DNA from: a virus
IMG/VR virus record: IMGVR_UViG_3300015371_000119
Coordinates: 1 to 31,927 of that record
Length of the DNA stretch: 31,927 nt
Reading direction: 5' to 3' (one strand)
This document shows positions 1 to 6,336 of this stretch, in pieces. Each line of letters starts with the position of its first letter. The first letter of the stretch is position 1. Both the position numbers and the translations under genes were made by a program. A model generated the notes under the pieces. It did not search any database. It worked only from the letters and a program-made list of their open reading frames with translations, and was not told the DNA's origin.

Positions 1-183
1 GATGCGTCCAATACAATCATCGCACAGATCCTCAGCGTAGCTTGTGTCTCCATTTCGTGTACGTTGTACCCATTCTCTAGTATCGTGCGCGTGTACAGTC
101 AGAGTGACAAGATGTAGATTACTGCCCTTCACCTTATCTGATTCAACTGTTGCTCCGCAACCTCTACAGATTGTTCTTCGCAT
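1..183 (-). CDS. Small Cys-rich (Zn-ribbon-like) protein, C-terminus beyond window edge
   Basis: This partial gene reads off the left edge; 61 codons are visible without a stop. The ATG at 183-181 follows a GGAGG about six bases upstream, and the gene overlaps the 3' end of the next gene upstream by 20 bases, which is typical of this operon. The protein starts MRRTICRGCGATVESDK and later has CDDCIG, so two CxxC pairs about 47 residues apart could bind one zinc ion. The central part looks like a short beta-rich linker. The function is not recognised; small zinc-ribbon proteins are common in phage early regions, some as transcription modulators. Seen: reading frame, SD and Cys pairs. Inferred: metal binding. 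Confidence 0.6.
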   Translation of the reverse strand, partial: MRRTICRGCGATVESDKVKGSNLHLVTLTVHAHDTREWVQRTRNGDTSYAEDLCDDCIGRI

Positions 184-781
184 ACGGTTCCTCCGCAATC
201 TCGTTGATGCACTGGATTAGATCCTTGTGCTGAATATCATCGACTCGACTGACTGAGTAATTGTCGAAGAGTTTGCGCGCTACCTTTTCCTCTAGATCAT
301 CCGGAGGATCAGCGTCATCGCGCTGTCTGTCCCATTCGGAGTAAACCTCATTATGCAGATACTCCATCAATTCTTCGTGTTCTAGCCTAGAGAAGTGTTC
401 CTCGTCAGCAACCGGATAATCTGCAAGCTTCTCAGCCCATTCGATACAAGCCTTGAATGCCTCAGTTAGATCCTCTTCCTCAAGGTCTGTGAAATTCCCG
501 TCAAGCTCAGCAGCTACCTCTTCCTTGATAACTCTGACTCTCAACTCTTCCGTCCAACCCACAGCCCAATGATTGTAGGACTCTGCTTGGAAGTCATCAG
601 GAAACCGCTCTAGCAGGTCTTTGGAGATAACCTCCCAATTGCTGCGAGTCAACTCATCTGCATCACGGTGCTGTCCTAGTCCCGTTCTGCCCCAACCATC
701 AGCTTCATGCAAATCACCGTAGTATGCGAAATACTCCGGCCTCTCAAGTGCTCTCTTTGCTTTGTCTACTAGGTCTGTCAT
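164..781 (-). CDS. Acidic hypothetical early protein (205 aa)
   Basis: This 205-aa acidic protein is rich in Glu and Asp and predicted mostly helical, with no signal peptide or membrane segment. I chose the ATG at 781 (MTDLVDKAKRALERPEYFAY...) instead of the TTG at 832. The ATG overlaps the stop of a 19-aa ORF just upstream in a TAATG arrangement, which indicates translational coupling, and the 17 extra residues of the TTG version are the same DNA as that peptide in another frame. It includes repeated short acidic helices such as DLEEEDLTEAFKACIEWAEK. I do not recognise a family. As an early operon member it could be a host-takeover or DNA-mimic protein, but acidity is the only hint. Confidence 0.75.
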   Translation of the reverse strand: MTDLVDKAKRALERPEYFAYYGDLHEADGWGRTGLGQHRDADELTRSNWEVISKDLLERFPDDFQAESYNHWAVGWTEELRVRVIKEEVAAELDGNFTDLEEEDLTEAFKACIEWAEKLADYPVADEEHFSRLEHEELMEYLHNEVYSEWDRQRDDADPPDDLEEKVARKLFDNYSVSRVDDIQHKDLIQCINEIAEEPYAKNNL

Positions 782-840
782 TAGTGAGTCCCAAAAATTA
801 GCAGGATTACGATATAGGCTACTACTAGCCAACCTAGCAT
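781..840 (-). CDS. 19-aa hydrophobic membrane micropeptide
   Basis: This tiny reading frame encodes MLGWLVVAYIVILLIFGTH. Residues 2-16 form one continuous hydrophobic stretch long enough to cross a membrane. Its ATG is preceded by GTGGAGGGATA, one of the better Shine-Dalgarno sequences in this operon. Its start overlaps the upstream stop as TAATG, and its own stop overlaps the next start as TAATG. Coupling at both ends plus the strong SD is hard to explain unless the ORF is translated. The function is unknown; it might be a membrane effector or simply a leader that couples translation of the 205-aa gene. Confidence 0.55.
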   Translation of the reverse strand: MLGWLVVAYIVILLIFGTH

Positions 841-1148
841 TATCCCTCCACTTGGATTACTCTGGACTCCTCATCCTCTTCCCACAACTCACTCAATGGA
901 TACAAGTCTTGATTAGGTGAGCATCGGTCGAGAAATAGTATTGGGTCAAACTCTGGATTATCTGATACAAACCTCCTAGCTAGTCGAAGTGCCATGTTAC
1001 ACAAAGCTGTCATTGCAGACATAGCCTGATCCCTCGCTGCCTTTTCAGATACTCCTGATCTAGCGCGCAGAATCTCAACTGTCTTTGCCATTTCTTCACG
1101 AATGTCTTTGGCAATCGCGTTGTAGTGTTGTGATGAGAACTTACTCAT
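840..1148 (-). CDS. Helical hypothetical protein (102 aa)
   Basis: The frame stays open further upstream, but that extension is the antisense-free shadow of the neighbouring 110-aa gene. The likely start is the ATG at 1148 (MSKFSSQHYNAIAKDIREEM), which overlaps the upstream stop as ATGAGTAA. The 102-aa product looks helical (AIAKDIREEMAKTVEILRAR), with a DNPEFDPILFLDRCSP segment near residues 63-78 and an acidic C-terminus (ELWEEDEESRV). Similar small proteins with an 'FD...F...C' tail are frequent among actinophage early genes, by recollection only. The function is unknown. The next gene in the operon is the 19-aa membrane peptide, coupled through TAATG. Confidence 0.7.
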   Translation of the reverse strand: MSKFSSQHYNAIAKDIREEMAKTVEILRARSGVSEKAARDQAMSAMTALCNMALRLARRFVSDNPEFDPILFLDRCSPNQDLYPLSELWEEDEESRVIQVEG

Positions 1149-1473
1149 CGAAGTACACCGCTTCCTCGCTATCGCGCAAGTCTCGCTTCTCTGCCCACTC
1201 ATGCAACTTGTCATCGAACCATCCATCATCACTCGTCGGATAGAGTCCGATGCTAGCGGCACTAGAAACTGTAATCTCTGGCTTAGTCTCATCGGGGTAG
1301 TGATTGTCTCTAAGCGCCATTGCTGCGTGTACTGCCTCAGTAGCAGTATCGTACTCTCCCTCTTCGTCATAGTTCGGAACGAGCATGCCAGGACTAATCT
1401 CATCGCGCCCTGTGGCGATTTCGATTCTTAGCTCCGTGTCATAGAACCCGTTTTGCCTACTCACAATGAACAT
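1141..1473 (-). CDS. Hypothetical early protein (110 aa)
   Basis: Two adjacent ATG codons (1476 and 1473) follow an AAGGAGGG SD. The second gives a more normal spacing, so I start there; the other choice adds one Met. The protein MFIVSRQNGFYDTELRIEIA begins with a beta hairpin-like segment. Residues near 35-50 (YDEEGEYDTATEAVHAAMAL) resemble a short helix of the type seen in proteins carrying a 'DPREAVEAA' motif. The C-terminus is helical and charged (WFDDKLHEWAEKRDL). No catalytic motif is visible and the family is unknown. It overlaps the next gene by eight bases. Confidence 0.72.
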   Translation of the reverse strand: MFIVSRQNGFYDTELRIEIATGRDEISPGMLVPNYDEEGEYDTATEAVHAAMALRDNHYPDETKPEITVSSAASIGLYPTSDDGWFDDKLHEWAEKRDLRDSEEAVYFDE

Positions 1474-1482
1474 CATCCCTCC

Positions 1483-1815
1483 TTACTTCATTGTCCTGTA
1501 TGCATGGAGAATATCGCCGGCCTCGAAATCTAGTGTCTCTCCGTTTTCGTTGATTAGGAATGAATGATCGCGCTTGAGAGTCTGAACACCCTTCTCAATC
1601 AAGATTGGTGCCGGACTCATGTAGTAGATAGGAAACCATGAGAAGTCTACAAACTTTCCTGTTCCCTCAAGTCCGCCGTAAGTCTTACCATCGTTGTACT
1701 CTACTCCTGGTAGAGACTCGATGCATGCTGCTGTCATCATACAACTCAGTGTAGTGTAATCCCACCTGAGTTGCAGAGCTTCACCGTCTCTAACGATTTC
1801 AGTATTCAGCGGCAT
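1483..1815 (-). CDS. Hypothetical early protein (110 aa)
   Basis: The protein MPLNTEIVRDGEALQLRWDY has no recognised domain. It appears mixed alpha/beta, with three Cys or Met-rich positions around residues 25-31 (CMMTAACI) and an aromatic segment DFSWFPIYYMSP. It ends in a short helix (DILHAYRTMK). The start overlaps the upstream 60-aa gene by ten bases. The SD is weak (GAG), which fits coupling to upstream translation. No metal-binding pattern, signal peptide or transmembrane segment is evident. The ORF is supported by length, by its place in a tightly packed operon and by the absence of a competing frame. Function unknown. Confidence 0.7.
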   Translation of the reverse strand: MPLNTEIVRDGEALQLRWDYTTLSCMMTAACIESLPGVEYNDGKTYGGLEGTGKFVDFSWFPIYYMSPAPILIEKGVQTLKRDHSFLINENGETLDFEAGDILHAYRTMK

Positions 1816-1988
1816 AGCTGCTCAATCTCCCTATATGCCCGATCATCCTCATCACTCGTCTCATCGAGAGACATTGCTAGATCCTCAGCAAGTGCAGGAA
1901 TCGTGACAGGAATATCAGGCCAGAACTCTTCACAGTATCTATGCAGAAGATGAAGCATCTGCCTACTATCACTATCTGTGAAATCCAT
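1806..1988 (-). CDS. Small acidic hypothetical protein (60 aa)
   Basis: This 60-aa protein (MDFTDSDSRQMLHLLHRYCE...) is acidic and helical. The middle (PVTIPALAEDLAMSLDETSD) ends in a run of Asp and Glu. Its ATG overlaps the stop of the preceding gene as TAATG, and a GGAGG lies ten bases upstream inside the end of that gene. It has no recognisable domain. It could be a small adaptor or inhibitor, but nothing in the sequence decides this. Coupling on both sides argues that it is translated. Confidence 0.65.
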   Translation of the reverse strand: MDFTDSDSRQMLHLLHRYCEEFWPDIPVTIPALAEDLAMSLDETSDEDDRAYREIEQLCR

Positions 1989-2281
1989 TAGCTGTAGTAC
2001 CTCCCCATGACTACCTCTTCGTAGTCAGTATCAGGAACGTATCTGAACAACACACCTGAGAAGAACGTCTCTGAGAAGTAACCATGCCAGTCATTGAAAT
2101 GCTCAATATTCCCGACTGGCTCACAATCGTCCACGTCATAGAACTCACCCTTGTATGGTGCTAGACGTGCAGTATACCTGTCATTCTCTTCGATGTAGTC
2201 GAAGTCACTTCTCTTTTCCTTCGGTACATCGAAGTAACAGACTAGCTCACGCGGTTGATTATTTGTCAGGATAGTAAGCAC
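1988..2281 (-). CDS. Hypothetical early protein (97 aa), GTG start
   Basis: The start is GTG at 2281 behind AAGGAGG with six bases spacing. An ATG four bases further upstream belongs to the overlapping 57-aa gene in another frame. The protein (MLTILTNNQPRELVCYFDVP) looks like a compact beta-rich domain with many aromatic and acidic residues, for example RYTARLAPYKGEFYDVDDCEP and HFNDWHGYFSETFFSGVLFRY. Domains of this sort are frequent as small phage proteins of unknown role. Its stop overlaps the next ATG. No catalytic residues can be assigned. Confidence 0.7.
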   Translation of the reverse strand: MLTILTNNQPRELVCYFDVPKEKRSDFDYIEENDRYTARLAPYKGEFYDVDDCEPVGNIEHFNDWHGYFSETFFSGVLFRYVPDTDYEEVVMGRYYS

Positions 2282-2432
2282 TCATATCCTCCTTATCGCA
2301 TGCAATAGGAGGACCCCACATATCATCGGGATGCTCTCTTACTGCAACATGAATGCGGTCAATCTGATCCGGCCAATCTTCAACCTTGACCGTTCTTTCC
2401 TCATTCACATACAAAGTGTACGGCGGTGTCAT
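2259..2432 (-). CDS. Small hypothetical protein (57 aa)
   Basis: This short gene encodes MTPPYTLYVNEERTVKVEDW and ends ...KEDMSAYYPDK. It has an excellent SD (AAAGGAGGCGAGA then ATG, about six bases spacing), and its last 23 bases overlap the start of the 97-aa gene. The protein has a beta-strand-like N-terminus and a helix-like WPDQIDRIHVAVREHPDDMW segment. It is the first gene after the structured noncoding stretch at 2433-2739, so its mRNA leader may carry that structure. The family is not recognised. Confidence 0.6.
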   Translation of the reverse strand: MTPPYTLYVNEERTVKVEDWPDQIDRIHVAVREHPDDMWGPPIACDKEDMSAYYPDK

Positions 2433-2464
2433 TCTCGCCTCCTTTCCTCACTCCCGTATTTATT

Positions 2465-2516
2465 CCTCATAGAATGGAATCTTGGGACTAAGACTATGAG
2501 GTAAGTGTCCCCTTAC
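2465..2516. promoter_or_regulatory. Two adjacent stem-loops upstream of the 57-aa gene
   Basis: CCTCATAG at 2465-2472 pairs with CTATGAGG at 2494-2501, and inside it TCTT (2480-2483) pairs with AAGA (2490-2493) around GGGACT, leaving a seven-base bulge. Directly next, GTAAG (2501-2505) pairs with CTTAC (2512-2516) around TGTCCC. These hairpins sit between the large structured element at 2529-2661 and the 57-aa gene. They lack a U-tract, so a leader or processing role is likelier than termination. Pairing is seen directly; function is inferred. Confidence 0.45.
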
Positions 2517-2528
2517 AAAACTAGCCTC

Positions 2529-2661
2529 CCGCAGATACTCTCCGACCGCGCCTCTTTGGGCATTTGCGGGTTCCCCACTGACCGGGGCGAATGATTTGAG
2601 TATAGAAGGGCCAGCTTCTATACTTTGTCATTCTTTTTTATATCTAAGAGAGTATCTGCGG
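2529..2661 (+). ncRNA. Candidate structured RNA, copy A (multi-branched, 14-bp closing helix)
   Basis: CCGCAGATACTCTC (2529-2542) is perfectly complementary to GAGAGTATCTGCGG (2648-2661). Inside are three stems with short linkers: CCGC-GCC/GGC-GCGG at 2546-2569; CCCC/GGGG at 2573-2576 and 2584-2587; and a long hairpin GAATGA...AGTATAGAAG/CTTCTATACT...TCATTC at 2589-2633. G-U pairs (2598-2625 and 2553-2558) form only if the plus strand is the RNA, which is opposite to the surrounding genes. The flanks CCTCCC before and CAAGCTAG after recur in copy B at 4766-4916, as do the AGAT/ATCT pairs of the closing helix. The 307-base gap 2433-2739 holds this element and no convincing gene. It could instead act in the minus-strand mRNA or as DNA. 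Confidence 0.55.
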
Positions 2662-2739
2662 CAAGCTAGCCATTGCTAAATTTCGATTCGCTACCTCCGC
2701 GCCGATTCCATCGGAGTCTATCAGATTGCGCCTCTCTTG

Positions 2740-2958
2740 TCAAGCTAGCCACTTGTACCAAACCGAGTTCTTTGCACAAACCCCGCCGGCCTCGTAAGCC
2801 ACGAGAACCATGCGCCACTCGATATCTGTCAGTTCTCGCCCGATGCAATCACTGACCAAATCGAACAGTTCGTGATTCTTGAGGTCAGGGAATCTATCCT
2901 CAGTTTCAACTGCAACGTCGATGATCTGATCTTTAGTCACGTCTCTGAGAGTCGTCAT
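2740..2958 (-). CDS. Hypothetical early protein (72 aa)
   Basis: I start at the ATG at 2958 (MTTLRDVTKDQIIDVAVETE), which shares a base with the upstream stop (TAATG). The longer version would add 14 residues that lie inside the upstream gene. The protein is helical with ELFDLVSDCIGRELTDIEWR in the middle and a C-terminus GVCAKNSVWYKWLA. Its alternating helices and length could suit a small DNA- or protein-binding domain, but no helix-turn-helix signature is clear. It is the last gene before the structured noncoding region, and a small hairpin CCGAT-TCC-ATCGG (2702-2714) lies 26 bases past its stop. Function unknown. Confidence 0.65.
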   Translation of the reverse strand: MTTLRDVTKDQIIDVAVETEDRFPDLKNHELFDLVSDCIGRELTDIEWRMVLVAYEAGGVCAKNSVWYKWLA

Positions 2959-3236
2959 TATTCCAGTCCTTTCACGATTAGTTCCTTGACGTGTGCCCAC
3001 CTGACTTTCGCATGATTCACGACACTTGCATGAATGTGCAATCCATACTCAGTGCATTCCTTGTTGGCAACCTCGTGTCCCTCGATGATCGCAGTAATCG
3101 GATGTGTCCAAAGAGCCATTGCATTCTTCTCGATGTAGTGACTCGGAGGATAGTCCACACTTGCATTGTAGTAGAAGAGTCCGTACTTTCCGGTATCTTC
3201 ACACTGACACAGGATGTATCCGTTATCCGCGCTCAT
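2958..3236 (-). CDS. MSADNGYI-type actinophage early protein (92 aa)
   Basis: The start is ATG at 3236 with a purine-rich GAGAGGGAAG SD, overlapping the upstream gene by 14 bases. A 22-residue longer version is possible but lies inside that gene. The N-terminus MSADNGYILCQCEDTGKYGL is distinctive: from memory, 'MSADNGIYI'-type proteins are widespread in phages of actinobacteria and have no assigned function. The rest has a beta-rich half (FYYNASVDYPPSHYIEKNAM) and a His-rich stretch HIHASVVNHAKVRWAH, where several histidines might bind metal. Family membership is recollection; metal binding is inference. Confidence 0.75.
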   Translation of the reverse strand: MSADNGYILCQCEDTGKYGLFYYNASVDYPPSHYIEKNAMALWTHPITAIIEGHEVANKECTEYGLHIHASVVNHAKVRWAHVKELIVKGLE

Positions 3237-3504
3237 CTTCCCTCTCCATTCTTTCGAGGTCAGCCTCAAGCTTGCCCTCATTGAATCCTCGATGGTACGC
3301 AAGCTCCCGAATCTCTAGTGCAATGTCAATAAACATTTGTTCGTGCGTTTCCCACAACTCATCAATCTTTCCAGCAGACTCAGGATGCTTCTCCCTCATC
3401 CTTACATCGAGAGCCTCCCAAAATGCATCTTCCTCTACATCCTCGGGACGATTGCCTGGAATGTCATTTACACTAACTCCGGGCGGCATGTTGAAATCAC
3501 CCAT
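3223..3504 (-). CDS. PPGVSVNDIPGNRPED-type early protein (93 aa)
   Basis: Residues 7-22 read PPGVSVNDIPGNRPED, a motif I recall as highly conserved in a small actinophage protein family of unknown function. It is usually followed, as here, by an acidic EDAFWEALDVR segment. The rest is a long charged helix (HEQMFIDIALEIRELAYHRG), ending in EADLERMEREDERG. The ATG at 3504 follows GGAGGGAACA. The ORF overlaps both neighbours by a few bases. This is one of the best host-group markers in the window; function cannot be given. Confidence 0.78.
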   Translation of the reverse strand: MGDFNMPPGVSVNDIPGNRPEDVEEDAFWEALDVRMREKHPESAGKIDELWETHEQMFIDIALEIRELAYHRGFNEGKLEADLERMEREDERG

Positions 3505-3709
3505 TGTTCCCTCCTAGTGGGAATAGCTTGGTAAACTCACTATTTACCTCATTCATCAGAGTCTCAAGCTTCTGACGGTACTGGAAACTTGGATCACTCT
3601 CCGTAACCATGTAGTGCAACGTGCAGAATCCAGTGAGATATGAAATCTTGCTCCTCAAAAATTCAATCTCACTTGAGAACTCGTACTCTTCACCCAACCC
3701 CACAGGCAT
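3497..3709 (-). CDS. Hypothetical early protein (70 aa)
   Basis: I start at ATG 3709 (MPVGLGEEYEFSSEIEFLRS), which has a strong AGGGAGGGAATC SD. The start eight codons upstream lies in the neighbour's coding region and lacks one. The protein looks mostly helical with an SEIEFLRSKISYLTGFCTLH segment and a YRQKLETLMNEVNSEFTKLF helix, so two antiparallel helices are likely. It ends LFPLGGNNG. No known domain is seen. It overlaps the 93-aa gene by eight bases. Confidence 0.68.
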   Translation of the reverse strand: MPVGLGEEYEFSSEIEFLRSKISYLTGFCTLHYMVTESDPSFQYRQKLETLMNEVNSEFTKLFPLGGNNG

Positions 3710-3722
3710 GATTCCCTCCCTG

Positions 3723-3920
3723 TTAGACGACAATCTCGTGAATCAAGTTTTCCGGTACATGGATGAGTTTGTCCATACTCTCACCGATCGTACCTTTCAC
3801 GATCACATAGACTTGACCGCGTTCGTGAAGTTGTGTTGTTCCCTCGTACTCTCCAATCACTGAGTACGGTGGCTGCTTCACGTCTCTCAGTTGAATCTTG
3901 ACGTTAGTACCCCGGATCAT
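3723..3920 (-). CDS. Small beta-rich hypothetical protein (65 aa)
   Basis: The preferred start is ATG 3920 (MIRGTNVKIQLRDVKQPPYS) with a GGTGGGACGAAG leader; the longer frame extends back 18 codons into the preceding gene. The protein alternates polar and hydrophobic residues (VKIQLRD, SVIGEYEGTT, RGQVYVIVKG), which suggests a single small beta-barrel similar in outline to SH3-like or OB-like folds. No ligand-binding residues can be named. It ends IHVPENLIHEIVV, 14 bases before the next start. Confidence 0.65.
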   Translation of the reverse strand: MIRGTNVKIQLRDVKQPPYSVIGEYEGTTQLHERGQVYVIVKGTIGESMDKLIHVPENLIHEIVV

Positions 3921-4137
3921 CTTCGTCCCACCTTTCTCCCGCGTATGACGGATCAAACCAACTAGGTCGAGCATCGCTCAGTAGTTCCATTGTCTTTTCT
4001 GCGCTTTCCAGTCTCTTTGACTGATGGTACTCACATCGCGGGAATGCCTTGAAATCATCCCTATCCGGATTGATGTGGTATTCTACCTCACCTACGCAAT
4101 CCGGTCCCTCTTCCAAACAACGAACGGGCTCATCCAT
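3904..4137 (-). CDS. CxxxGPDC...CEYH Zn-binding-like actinophage protein (77 aa)
   Basis: The pattern RCLEEGPDCVGEVEYH, then FPRCEYHQSKRLE and the C-terminal PSWFDPSYAGERWDEDDPGY matches, from memory, a very common small protein of actinobacteriophages whose function is unknown. Cys7, Cys14, Cys35 and His38 with nearby His22 could coordinate zinc. The usual family length is close to this 77 aa. The ATG follows GGAGGGAG about ten bases upstream. The motif pattern is seen directly; family assignment is recollection; zinc binding is inferred. Confidence 0.8.
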   Translation of the reverse strand: MDEPVRCLEEGPDCVGEVEYHINPDRDDFKAFPRCEYHQSKRLESAEKTMELLSDARPSWFDPSYAGERWDEDDPGY

Positions 4138-4138
4138 C

Positions 4139-4336
4139 TTATACCAACTCCCTCCACGTTACGAATACCTCTTCCTTGTGTTCCTCCATCCACTTGCAAC
4201 AGTCACACGCTACTGTATGTGAGGGATGTGCTTTCTTGCAATCTTGCTTGCAGTCTGCACACTGACCCATCACTTTGTCGATGAGGTACTCTAGCCTCTC
4301 TTCACTCTGTAGAAAGTCAATGGTGCGCGACAGCAT
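4139..4336 (-). CDS. Cys/His-rich small protein (65 aa)
   Basis: The second half carries CADCKQDCKKAHPSHTVACD followed by CC, so six cysteines and two histidines occur within 24 residues, enough for one or two zinc sites. The N-terminal half (LQSEERLEYLIDKVMG) is a helix. The ATG at 4336 lies inside the end of the SprT-like gene (46-base overlap) behind a GGGAGGGAGTG SD. Cys clusters of this sort are known from small nucleic-acid or protein-binding modules. No exact family is recognised. Confidence 0.68.
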   Translation of the reverse strand: MLSRTIDFLQSEERLEYLIDKVMGQCADCKQDCKKAHPSHTVACDCCKWMEEHKEEVFVTWRELV

Positions 4337-4752
4337 GACGACTTCACTCCCTCCCGTCTTAGTTCCTTTCGCAATCTAAATCTTTCCCATCGTTTCTTAC
4401 AATTGGAGCACTCGATGATGTAGTTAGGTTGTGCTGCCGATTGAACGTGATCCGGCGCGCAACTCTGAGGTCTTGCACCTAGCTGAATAGCTGCACGTTT
4501 CCAGACGTAATCGTGTCCGTGTCCGGAACCTACAACTGCGTGAGCTATTTCGTGTCTCACAGTATCCTCTAGTTCCTCGTCTGATGTGGAACCTACATAC
4601 CATAGCGATACCTCGATTGTCTTTTCCTTAAATGAACACATCCCTAGCCTGCGTTTCGAGTTACCCCACTTGAATCTCCAACCCTCTAGGTTGTGATCCT
4701 TTAGCAGAGTATTAGCTAGGTTCGTGATCTTGTCAAGTGTCTCAACATCCAT
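4291..4752 (-). CDS. SprT-like zinc metallopeptidase
   Basis: The protein belongs to the SprT/Spartan-like family of zinc metallopeptidases. The active-site motif is HEIAH at residues 67-71, with a downstream HGHDYVWK (78-85) that should supply the third zinc ligand. A C-terminal zinc ribbon is built from C115, C118, C140 and C141, as in bacterial SprT. Eukaryotic Spartan degrades DNA-protein crosslinks; phage versions are common in early regions and their substrate is unknown. The ATG at 4752 has a GGGAGG SD nine bases upstream; an upstream ATG at 4797 would add 15 residues and runs through the closing helix of the structured element at 4766-4916. That helix partly covers the SD, so translation may depend on it. 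Confidence 0.85.
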   Translation of the reverse strand: MDVETLDKITNLANTLLKDHNLEGWRFKWGNSKRRLGMCSFKEKTIEVSLWYVGSTSDEELEDTVRHEIAHAVVGSGHGHDYVWKRAAIQLGARPQSCAPDHVQSAAQPNYIIECSNCKKRWERFRLRKELRREGVKSSCCRAPLTFYRVKRG

Positions 4753-4765
4753 TTTCTCAAACCTC

Positions 4766-4916
4766 CCTGAGATTACAGGACGGCACAATTCAGGCAAATC
4801 CGTACACTCTCTGTACGGCTCCCATCACTAGGGTTTGAAAGTGCCCTGTATCGTACCGGGCGCGGTGATGTTCCTTCACGCTCCACCTATTATGCAATTG
4901 CTCCTGTAATCTCAGG
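4766..4916 (+). ncRNA. Candidate structured RNA, copy B (15-bp closing helix)
   Basis: CCTGAGATTACAGGA (4766-4780) pairs perfectly with TCCTGTAATCTCAGG (4902-4916). Inner stems are CAATT/AATTG (4786-4790 with 4896-4900), CCGTACA/TGTACGG (4800-4806 with 4812-4818), CATCACT/GGTGATG (4823-4829 with 4864-4870) and GTGCCC/GGGCGC (4841-4846 with 4858-4863). The last two stack end to end on the 3' side. Their U-G pairs (4829-4864 and 4842-4862) need plus-strand RNA. Flanks CCTCCC and CAAGCTAG equal those of copy A. On the minus strand the same flank supplies the GGGAGG SD of the SprT-like gene, so a cis-regulatory leader for that gene is the main alternative. Confidence 0.55.
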
Positions 4917-4920
4917 CAAG

Positions 4921-5094
4921 CTAGAGATATACATACGGATGTTCGTATGCCTCAAGTGCCTGATCTTTCGGAATCTCCTGGAACTGATAACCCTGCGGAT
5001 CTGTCACATACAGTGTTACGGTATCGTTCTGATCGTTCCAGTAAATCGCAATCTCTGTGTCACCATCTTCTCTTAGTGCAAGTTGCCTTTCCAT
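4921..5094 (-). CDS. Small beta-rich hypothetical protein (57 aa)
   Basis: This gene encodes MERQLALREDGDTEIAIYWN and ends in QALEAYEHPYVYL. It fills the space between the 73-aa gene and structured element B, and its stop lies four bases from that element. The ATG is preceded by AAGGACTGAGTGAAG, a moderate SD, and starts two bases after the upstream stop. The sequence alternates in a way typical of three or four beta strands (TEIAIYW, TVTLYVT, YQFQEIP). No family is recognised. Confidence 0.65.
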   Translation of the reverse strand: MERQLALREDGDTEIAIYWNDQNDTVTLYVTDPQGYQFQEIPKDQALEAYEHPYVYL

Positions 5095-5096
5095 CT

Positions 5097-5318
5097 TCAC
5101 TCAGTCCTTCCGTGAAAGAATTGGTAGTAACTCCCACCCTTCGGATTTACTAGATCAACCGTCCATTGCGCGGTATCCCCGTAAACCTTATCGAGTGCTT
5201 TTGCTTCACCACTCGCAACTTGACCCGCGAGTAGGTAATCCTCTAGCGTCAGTTCGATTTCTTCCACGTTCCACGTTTCATCGAACCAACGCTTTCTGAC
5301 GATAAACTTGGTTTCCAT
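5097..5318 (-). CDS. Hypothetical early protein (73 aa)
   Basis: The ATG at 5318 follows AAGGAG with six bases spacing; a GTG one codon earlier is a poorer choice. The leader contains ACCGAAAGGAG, which also precedes the 54-aa gene at 5933. The protein (METKFIVRKRWFDETWNVEE) appears to have an N-terminal beta segment, a helix (LEDYLLAGQVASGEAKALDK) and a beta-rich C-terminus (AQWTVDLVNPKGGSYYQFFH). It is the first gene after the terminator at 5337-5387, so it either depends on read-through or has a promoter I cannot see. Function unknown. Confidence 0.68.
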   Translation of the reverse strand: METKFIVRKRWFDETWNVEEIELTLEDYLLAGQVASGEAKALDKVYGDTAQWTVDLVNPKGGSYYQFFHGRTE

Positions 5319-5336
5319 CACTCACTCCTTTCGGTT

Positions 5337-5387
5337 AAAACTCAGGGCGGGGATTCGTGTTGCTGTTTTCTCCCCACCCTCAGTTTT
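5337..5387 (-). terminator. Intrinsic terminator after the 101-aa gene
   Basis: AAAACT-C-AGGG-C-GGGGA (5337-5353) opposes TCCCC-A-CCCT-C-AGTTTT (5371-5387) around a 17-base loop. Read on the minus strand, the 5376/5348 position becomes a U-G pair, so the minus RNA is the more stable form, and the stem ends in AGTTTT then AA. It begins within the stop codon of the 101-aa gene. A U-tract of only four T suggests moderate efficiency with some read-through into the operon. Confidence 0.6.
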
Positions 5388-5691
5388 AGGCCGAGACTGC
5401 ACCATCCTGAGACAGCACGACAAAGCCCTTCACGACCTCACCCTTGTCATTCTTGTGCTCACGCGCGGTGACGGTAATGTCAAGCTTCATCTTGCTAGCG
5501 TTCTGGAGAAAACTCTGCCGAACCGTGGCAGCAGTCTTACCCTTGAAAACGCCCTCAGTCAGAGAAATGACGGCATTCTGCCGACCGGACTCCGAAAACT
5601 CGCGGAGCGCAGCAGCGTACACACCAGTCAGCTTTCCCTCGGACATGATCTCAGTAATCTCATCCGGCTCAAGCTCGATGAAATACGACAT
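5386..5691 (-). CDS. Hypothetical protein with its own promoter/operator and terminator (101 aa)
   Basis: The protein MSYFIELEPDEITEIMSEGK has no recognised family. The N-terminal half looks helical (GVYAAALREFSESGRQNAVI) and the C-terminal half beta-rich (KLDITVTAREHKNDKGEVVK, then GFVVLSQDGAVSA). The ATG sits behind AAGGAGGTG. The gene is flanked upstream by a TTGACA promoter covered by a large palindrome and downstream by an intrinsic terminator. It therefore looks like a single-gene transcription unit inside the early block, unlike its operon-packed neighbours. Such an arrangement often marks an abundant or tightly regulated product. A nucleic-acid-binding role is possible, but no motif proves it. 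Confidence 0.75.
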   Translation of the reverse strand: MSYFIELEPDEITEIMSEGKLTGVYAAALREFSESGRQNAVISLTEGVFKGKTAATVRQSFLQNASKMKLDITVTAREHKNDKGEVVKGFVVLSQDGAVSA

Positions 5692-5723
5692 TGTGGATTA
5701 CACCTCCTTTCGCTGGTTTCGAT

Positions 5724-5766
5724 GACTTGGTAGGAGCTTACCGAATTGATAAGCTCGTGTCAAGTC
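5724..5766 (-). promoter_or_regulatory. Promoter overlapped by a hyphenated palindrome (operator)
   Basis: On the minus strand a perfect -35 TTGACA (5763-5758) is followed after exactly 17 bases by TAAGCT (5740-5735) as a weak -10. The same DNA forms GACTTG-(4)-GAGCTTA-(9)-TAAGCTC-(4)-CAAGTC, a two-part inverted repeat spanning 5724-5766. The inner arms cover the spacer and the -10, so a dimeric repressor bound here would block the promoter. The alternative is a hairpin in an RNA from farther upstream. It drives the 101-aa gene. Confidence 0.5.
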
Positions 5767-5768
5767 AG

Positions 5769-5933
5769 CTAACCGTAGATTCTCTCGCATTCGGCATCTG
5801 ACAGAAGTTCGGCGTGTTGGTCTGAGTCGATTTCGCCCATATCAACTAGCATATGTGCAGCTTCGTCGGGGTTGCTTGCCATACCCTCGTCTACCAGACC
5901 TTTCTGCAATTCCCGCGCTTCTCGAAGTGTCAT
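5769..5933 (-). CDS. Small helical acidic protein (54 aa)
   Basis: This gene encodes MTLREARELQKGLVDEGMAS and ends AECERIYG. It is acidic and entirely helical by appearance, with NPDEAAHMLVDMGEIDSDQH in the middle. The ATG follows GAAAGGAG eight bases upstream and is the first gene after the TTGACT/TAGGAT promoter at 5969-5997. Its stop is three bases from the palindrome that controls the next gene. No family is recognised; it could be a small regulator because it is the first product of the promoter. Confidence 0.68.
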   Translation of the reverse strand: MTLREARELQKGLVDEGMASNPDEAAHMLVDMGEIDSDQHAELLSDAECERIYG

Positions 5934-5968
5934 TGTCTTTGCTCCTTTCGGTTGATTGGGTTGATTAC

Positions 5969-5997
5969 ATCCTACAGGAGAACCTACAGAAAGTCAA
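5969..5997 (-). promoter_or_regulatory. Sigma70-type early promoter
   Basis: The minus strand shows TTGACT (5997-5992), a 17-base spacer (5991-5975) and TAGGAT (5974-5969), a good match to host vegetative promoters. CTGTAGG occurs twice as a direct repeat within the spacer and -10 (complement of CCTACAG at 5971-5977 and 5983-5989). The -35 context GACTTGAC is identical to that of the second promoter at 5758-5766, so both may be read by the same factor. It should transcribe the left early block, beginning with the 54-aa gene. Confidence 0.65.
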
Positions 5998-6004
5998 GTC
6001 GTTT

Positions 6005-6062
6005 TTCTCAGAAAGTCGCTGCTTTTGATGATTTATCGAATTTTAGTTATTTTTTCTGAGAA
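6005..6062. promoter_or_regulatory. Pair of palindromic TTCTSAGAA sites (possible operators)
   Basis: TTCTCAGAA (6005-6013) and TTCTGAGAA (6054-6062) are 9-bp palindromes 49 bases apart, both embedded in T-rich sequence (TTTTTCTCAGAAAG and TTTTTTCTGAGAAC). The first lies eight bases upstream of the -35 of the early promoter. A spacing near five helical turns would suit two dimers on one DNA face. The DNA between them is AT-rich. Binding by a repressor is inference. Confidence 0.45.
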
Positions 6063-6213
6063 CTTGTTACACTTACCCTTTCTTAGGTTGTATTATACAC
6101 TTTTTTAGTATTCTACAGTCCTGGGTTGTATTTTCCAACATACCTTAGGGCATGTGGTGTAACGTCATTTGCATCTTAGTCCGATGTTTACAGTAGGATT
6201 GTAGGTCGAGTTT
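6063..6213. other. AT-rich intergenic segment with GGTTGTATT direct repeats
   Basis: No gene is seen here. GGTTGTATT occurs at 6086-6094 and 6124-6132. The first copy continues as GGTTGTATTATACAC, which contains TATAAT on the minus strand (6097-6092) without a convincing -35. ATACACTTTT at 6095-6104 recurs in inverted orientation at 6928-6937 in the divergent intergenic region. Together with the operators and promoter to its left, this is the most regulator-dense noncoding stretch in the early block. A replication origin cannot be excluded. Confidence 0.35.
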
Positions 6214-6336
6214 CTATCTGTAGCTCCGATTCTGCGATTTCGCCGAATACAGCGCCAGCAGGACAAACAGTCCGACCCACACAATTAGCAGGACTGCGAT
6301 CAAGTCGCCGATCAGATGTGCAATGGGTAGATTCAT
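6214..6336 (-). CDS. 40-aa single-pass membrane peptide
   Basis: The gene encodes MNLPIAHLIGDLIAVLLIVW and continues VGLFVLLALYSAKSQNRSYR. Residues 9-30 form one strong transmembrane helix and the C-terminus is basic, predicting the tail inside the cytoplasm. The ATG follows GAGGAGGAAGT and overlaps the upstream stop as ATGA. Because it is short and membrane-embedded it could be a host-membrane effector or an antiholin-like peptide. It is encoded far from any recognised lysis gene, so that is only a possibility. Confidence 0.65.
   Translation of the reverse strand: MNLPIAHLIGDLIAVLLIVWVGLFVLLALYSAKSQNRSYR

Follow-up and report, generated by a model that had tools for sequence, protein, structure and literature searches.

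The early region of bacteriophage T7 contains RNase III sites (R0.3 to R1.3 and others), which are hairpins on the transcript strand located between early genes and shortly before the next ribosome-binding site (RBS); their cut sites lie 22–35 nt before the starts of the following genes, as positioned on the T7 CDS coordinates. When folded here, these sites were compact with small loops, and several shared arm sequence such as AAGGTC. In rRNA processing stalks, likewise cut by RNase III, a long stem encloses a structured insert. In Cluster K mycobacteriophages, inverted repeats recur before the RBSs of non-structural genes; these extended start-associated sequences (ESAS) are imperfect, 17 bp in length, follow a consensus and mostly have spacers of 4–13 bp, and little support was found for mRNA hairpins (PMC3203893). 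Microbacterium Cluster EG phages carry 18-bp inverted repeats, with 8–10 copies in short gaps, typically 14–22 bp before start codons (PMC7302621).

Analysis of a viral window of 31,927 nt (IMG/VR record IMGVR_UViG_3300015371_000119) and of related contigs revealed intercistronic stems, referred to here as stalks, that resemble each of these systems in part. Like the T7 sites, the stalks are found on the transcript between cistrons with a stem some 20 bp long or longer, but they differ in their longer stem, usually with one 1x1 mismatch, and in their 20–135 nt insert of unconserved sequence, and their cleavage is putative. They share the long stem and structured insert of the rRNA processing stalks, although the phage insert is no conserved RNA. 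Both ESAS and the stalks are repeated before RBSs of non-structural genes, but the stalks are perfect, covarying and without a consensus; their arms differ in sequence and their inserts are longer, so we do not assign them to ESAS. The Cluster EG repeats are also unlike the stalks in having a fixed sequence, GATCAACCNNGGTTGATC, and no insert.

Two stalks in the early region of the window

A first-pass annotation had proposed two elements, A (2529–2661) and B (4766–4916), closed by perfect helices of 14 bp and 15 bp, respectively, and both were present as claimed, each within an intergenic gap. The arms (2529–2542/2648–2661 in A, inverted repeat I2; 4766–4780/4902–4916 in B, inverted repeat I1) contain no mismatches, and the window holds three inverted repeats of at least 14 bp versus 0.01 expected in Markov-1 sequence of the same composition. 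The conserved ends were also confirmed, with CCTC before and CAAGCTAG after each element and CCNNAGAT/ATCTNNGG common to both, as were the two covarying inner columns within these shared arms. What had been overlooked is that both helices continue outward of a single mismatch, to 2521/2669 in A (7 bp, one wobble) and to 4755/4927 in B.

Read on the minus strand, the whole of stalk A (2521–2669) comprises an inner helix with its 5′ arm at 2648–2661 and its 3′ arm at 2529–2542, a G at 2662 facing a G at 2528, an outer helix formed by CUAGCUU (5′ arm, 2663–2669) and AGGCUAG (3′ arm, 2521–2527) with one U.G among its 7 bp, and a structured insert of 105 nt (2543–2647) with a loop z of about −3.8, computed on the identical sequence of contig G001 (26894–27026). 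Stalk B (4755–4927), on the same strand, has its inner 5′ arm at 4902–4916 and inner 3′ arm at 4766–4780, a G at 4917 facing a G at 4765, outer arms at 4918–4927 (5′) and 4755–4764 (3′), and an insert of 121 nt. Compared with dinucleotide shuffles, the minus-strand folds gave z values of −8.3 (A) and −6.2 (B). The 5′ outer arm of B holds the UAG stop codon (4921–4923) of the upstream ORF (4921–5094, minus strand), and its 3′ outer arm overlaps the GGGAGG Shine-Dalgarno (SD) sequence (4762–4767) of the gene starting at 4752, which is predicted to be mostly paired (unpaired probability 0.20). This gene (4291–4752, minus strand), directly downstream of B, encodes a SprT-like metalloprotease family protein (PF10263, E 1e-10). 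The next start after stalk A is 96 nt away.

Several other features surround element A. A third CAAGCTAG (2741–2748) overlaps a promoter-like TTGACA-17-TAGACT sequence with a TG extension on the minus strand (2715–2748), a transcript from which would bear element A as its leader. On the plus strand, A contains a terminator-like hairpin with a T-rich tail behind it (2598–2640), which might act as an antisense transcription stop. Positions 1–6324 of the window match the end of contig G001 (24366–30689) at 99.97% identity, indicating that the same phage extends left of the window.

Equivalent stalks in related phages

A scan with the capsid protein turned up 80 related loci in contigs of uncultured phages, and examination of whole contigs revealed dozens of equivalents in the non-structural regions of several related phages. 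The two copies originally reported are real but understate the case: in this phage group, the early operon carries many such elements between its cistrons. Inverted repeats within the coding repeats of tail-fibre-like genes (loci L149, L143 and L175) were classed as coding and T-tailed repeats as terminators. In total, 39 intergenic inverted repeats with arms of at least 13 bp were observed versus 0.5 expected, and 31 versus 0.0 with arms of at least 14 bp, in contigs that are all uncultured and many of them fragments, the elements of one genome being non-independent. Strict two-tier stems numbered 24 in intergenic and 3 in coding sequence, all 3 of the latter within repetitive tail-fibre-like genes, and a Markov draw produced zero two-tier stems with an inner arm longer than 9 bp.

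The shared plan is an inner helix of 12–20 bp, usually a 1x1 mismatch, an outer helix of 5–10 bp, and an insert that is frequently structured itself and whose sequence is free to vary. The mismatch is G.G in 18 of 28 two-tier stalks, and the total helix is mainly 18–28 bp, roughly two helical turns. Apart from the stalks, arrays of ~62-nt inverted-repeat units occupy the long coding repeats of the tail-fibre-like gene (L149 1–2100, L143 3486–4175, L175 3159–4197), and L150 2019–2921 is full of CACGTGGACGCC-type repeats and overlapping palindromes.

Searches of known families and of cultured phages gave no counterpart. Rfam 15 covariance models yielded no matches above the gathering score in the window or in relatives L208, L223, L235, L215 and L211, and the best match to 2400–5050 at a relaxed threshold was at chance level (E 3.9) and outside both elements, leaving A and B undescribed in Rfam. 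Comparable stalk abundance in noncoding DNA was absent from eight cultured phages, each covered whole or in large part (T7, TM4, Petra, LiSara, Wollypog, Triscuit, Shrew and Sparcetus), four of which are terminase relatives. The nearest cultured terminases, from actinobacteriophages, are ~35–37% identical. A distant blastn search of cultured phages with this region gave no match; the exact motif ATCTNNGGCAAGCTAG gave, among the matches listed across viral contigs, only chance ones lacking the partner arm; and a search of bacterial genomes for relatives of the terminase and capsid, intended to trace the host, found none. The proposal that A and B represent a structured-RNA family, undescribed and conserved in its fold, is upheld by the lack of an Rfam match, the many members in relatives, helices that vary in sequence yet remain paired, and one orthologue-like pair with double compensatory changes: the stalks are a real, undescribed RNA structure family of an uncultured soil-phage group.

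Conservation of pairing rather than sequence

Because the outer helix was unused in detection, its presence provides an independent test of pairing. Among the 76 intergenic repeats whose arms are 12 bp or longer, 16 had at least 4 Watson-Crick pairs past one mismatch, versus ~0.3 expected by chance ((1/4)^4); in coding sequence, 2 of 99 repeats did. In a gapless alignment of 18 G.G members, each of the 17 pairs varied at both of its positions, and pairing held in 98.7% of cells versus 28–44% with the partner slid; this set was picked for pairing of its inner and outer arms and so describes pair variability rather than providing a fresh test of pairing. One orthologue-like pair of stalks could be aligned (G003 6458 and G004 25166); apart from a single break, it showed four double compensatory changes, three of them in internal helices unused in detection. 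In sum, selection maintains the pairing, length and position of the stalks rather than their sequence. The view that A and B are not mobile repeats holds as well, since the helices vary in sequence while staying paired; MITE or REP elements were rejected because A and B are similar over only 16 nt and their arms differ yet remain paired.

The RNA strand

The first-pass annotation had placed the RNA on the plus strand, opposite the early genes, a reading not supported by the energies of the whole elements, the outer helices or the statistics of the family. Fold energies favored the minus strand for both A (−78.1 versus −71.1 kcal/mol) and B (−77.7 versus −62.7 kcal/mol), and the outer helices of A and B have a G.G mismatch and U.G pairs on the minus strand versus C.C and C.A on the plus strand, which favors the early-gene strand. 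The cleanest strand test is a count that treats G-T and A-C symmetrically. Inner helices read on the gene strand extended by G-U in 22 cases and by A-C in 0, and therefore the stalk RNA is most likely the gene strand, the minus strand in the window; outward extensions were neutral (21:19). Of 59 repeats between co-directional genes, a few entries of which overlap, 45 folded more stably on the gene strand than on the complement; the strand energy difference exceeded that of loop shuffles (Stouffer z −6.05). The corresponding energy excess in a curated set of 52 was 32:19 (Wilcoxon p 0.001), a bias that ordinary intergenic DNA also shows more weakly. The plus-strand G-U extension reported at 2598–2625 exists locally but is outweighed as strand evidence, a warning against assigning the strand of an RNA from a handful of G-U pairs in no more than two copies.

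Position in the early operon

The stalks are mainly confined to the early operon. Non-terminator repeats numbered 56 among genes opposite the capsid-gene strand (128.5 kb of intergenic sequence) versus 5 on the capsid strand (72.2 kb), an unfiltered count that is preferable to the 52:0 of a curated list, which was chosen partly by eye. Many stalks occupy the gap from the upstream stop codon to the next RBS, and a start codon lies 13–36 nt past the inner helix in 20 of the 39 stalks that have an SD-bearing start within 200 nt, as assigned with a home-made gene caller that overlooks small genes. In most stalks the SD sequence is outside the helix, and over 29 stalks mean SD accessibility was 0.39 with the stalk, compared with 0.41 without it and 0.43 for control genes.

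No common class was apparent among the genes downstream of the stalks. Their ORFs vary widely in length, and the SprT homologue in the relative G002 has no stalk directly upstream, indicating that stalks do not merely travel with a gene. On these ORF lengths and this one homologue, a riboswitch-like regulator of one gene class was judged unlikely. Intrinsic terminators were also rejected, since only 4 of 60 early-strand repeats have a T-tail and the inserts of A and B are long.

Alternative partners for the outer arms

At about one third of stalks an outer arm can pair with a competing local hairpin. In 13 of 52 stalks, versus 0.7 expected, the sequence just upstream can form an alternative helix of at least 7 bp with the 5′ outer arm, and in 6 of 52, versus 0.8 expected, the 3′ outer arm has a competing downstream partner. 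In several members the mismatched base of the stalk is paired inside the competing hairpin. No strong competing hairpin was found at A or B of the window. At locus L148 (1380–1440, minus strand), a 12-codon ORF, MQNHKMLNLHKI, comes after the stalk 3′ arm GGGAGGTTAGG and contains CTTAACCTCC, a near-complement of that arm, in an attenuator-like layout.

Discussion

We tentatively propose that the stalks are intercistronic stems on a polycistronic early message that serve as RNase III-type processing or insulation sites, a reading that we favor while judging it somewhat short of probable. The stalk, with its stem of about 18–28 bp, would be the target of a host double-strand-specific ribonuclease of the RNase III type, which would cleave the long early message in its intergenic gaps, shortly before the following RBS, in the manner of the T7 R sites; cleavage would separate and insulate the cistrons. 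Since no RNase III or dsRNA-binding domains encoded by the phages were found, the enzyme would be supplied by the host, in which it is presumed to be present. Double-strand-specific processing is the best fit to the combination of an intercistronic position, a constrained stem length and a free sequence. Nevertheless, several features argue against this reading: neither the preference for G.G nor the competing hairpins can be accounted for by RNase III, the T7 R sites are small-looped whereas many stalks have inserts of 50–135 nt, and within the window A is far from the next start while B occludes its SD.

The occluded SD of B, together with the upstream UAG in the opposite outer arm and the many stalks that run from stop codon to RBS, would also suit translational control or coupling, in which the stalk juxtaposes the upstream stop and the downstream RBS or hides the RBS until a terminating ribosome melts the outer helix. 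General sequestration of the RBS was rejected, as mean SD accessibility is unchanged by the stalk, a result that favors insulation or processing over RBS control. With the SD beyond the helix in most members and the G002 SprT homologue arguing against gene-specific control, we regard coupling as unlikely.

The excess of competing hairpins raises a further alternative, an RNA switch or attenuator in which the outer arm pairs exclusively with the stalk or with the local hairpin and this exchange governs elongation or translation. Pairing of the mismatched base within the competing hairpin of several members would account for retention of the mismatch, but the competitor is absent or weak at A and B, the scarcity of T-tails leaves no terminator, and neither a common ligand pocket nor a common downstream gene class is apparent, making such a switch doubtful. 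A bolder and still speculative version, which we rate slightly higher, is a sequence-free intercistronic switch with a G.G-preferring two-tier stalk, whose outer-arm exchange with a local hairpin would be read by a host or phage protein and would set expression cistron by cistron along the early operon, clade-wide.

Uncut stalks could instead guard cistron ends from exonucleases, as do REP or 3′ stabilising hairpins. Great stability, intercistronic position and freedom of sequence are all consistent with such transcript protection, but large inserts, a two-tier plan and a position before the RBS are unnecessary at a 3′ end, and we consider this explanation improbable.

The length and hairpin plan of the elements recall integron attC sites, and G003 and G005 contain chains of palindromic repeats, bringing to mind a feature of the DNA itself, whether a folded single-strand recombination site, a cruciform or a relic of template switching. 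Such an origin is very improbable given that the G-U:A-C ratio and the energy asymmetry point to RNA of one strand and that double compensatory changes occur in the G003/G004 stalks; by inspection, the conserved GTT/AAC R-box triplets are missing from the stem ends of A and B, and attC was rejected as a class. Least credible of all is a noncoding RNA from the plus strand that would be antisense to the early operon, for which a gain of plus-strand G-U pairs in some inner hairpins (2598–2625) and the terminator-like hairpin within A can be cited but against which the whole-element energies, outer helices and family statistics all support the gene strand.

The stalks represent a multi-copy RNA architecture kept in shape rather than sequence, which is missed by sequence-motif searches and Rfam and is widespread in the early operons of this uncultured phage group. 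The G.G mismatch and the competing hairpins give directly testable predictions. If the stalks are indeed processing or insulation sites, they would reveal how these phages adjust the output of many tiny genes carried on a single transcript.
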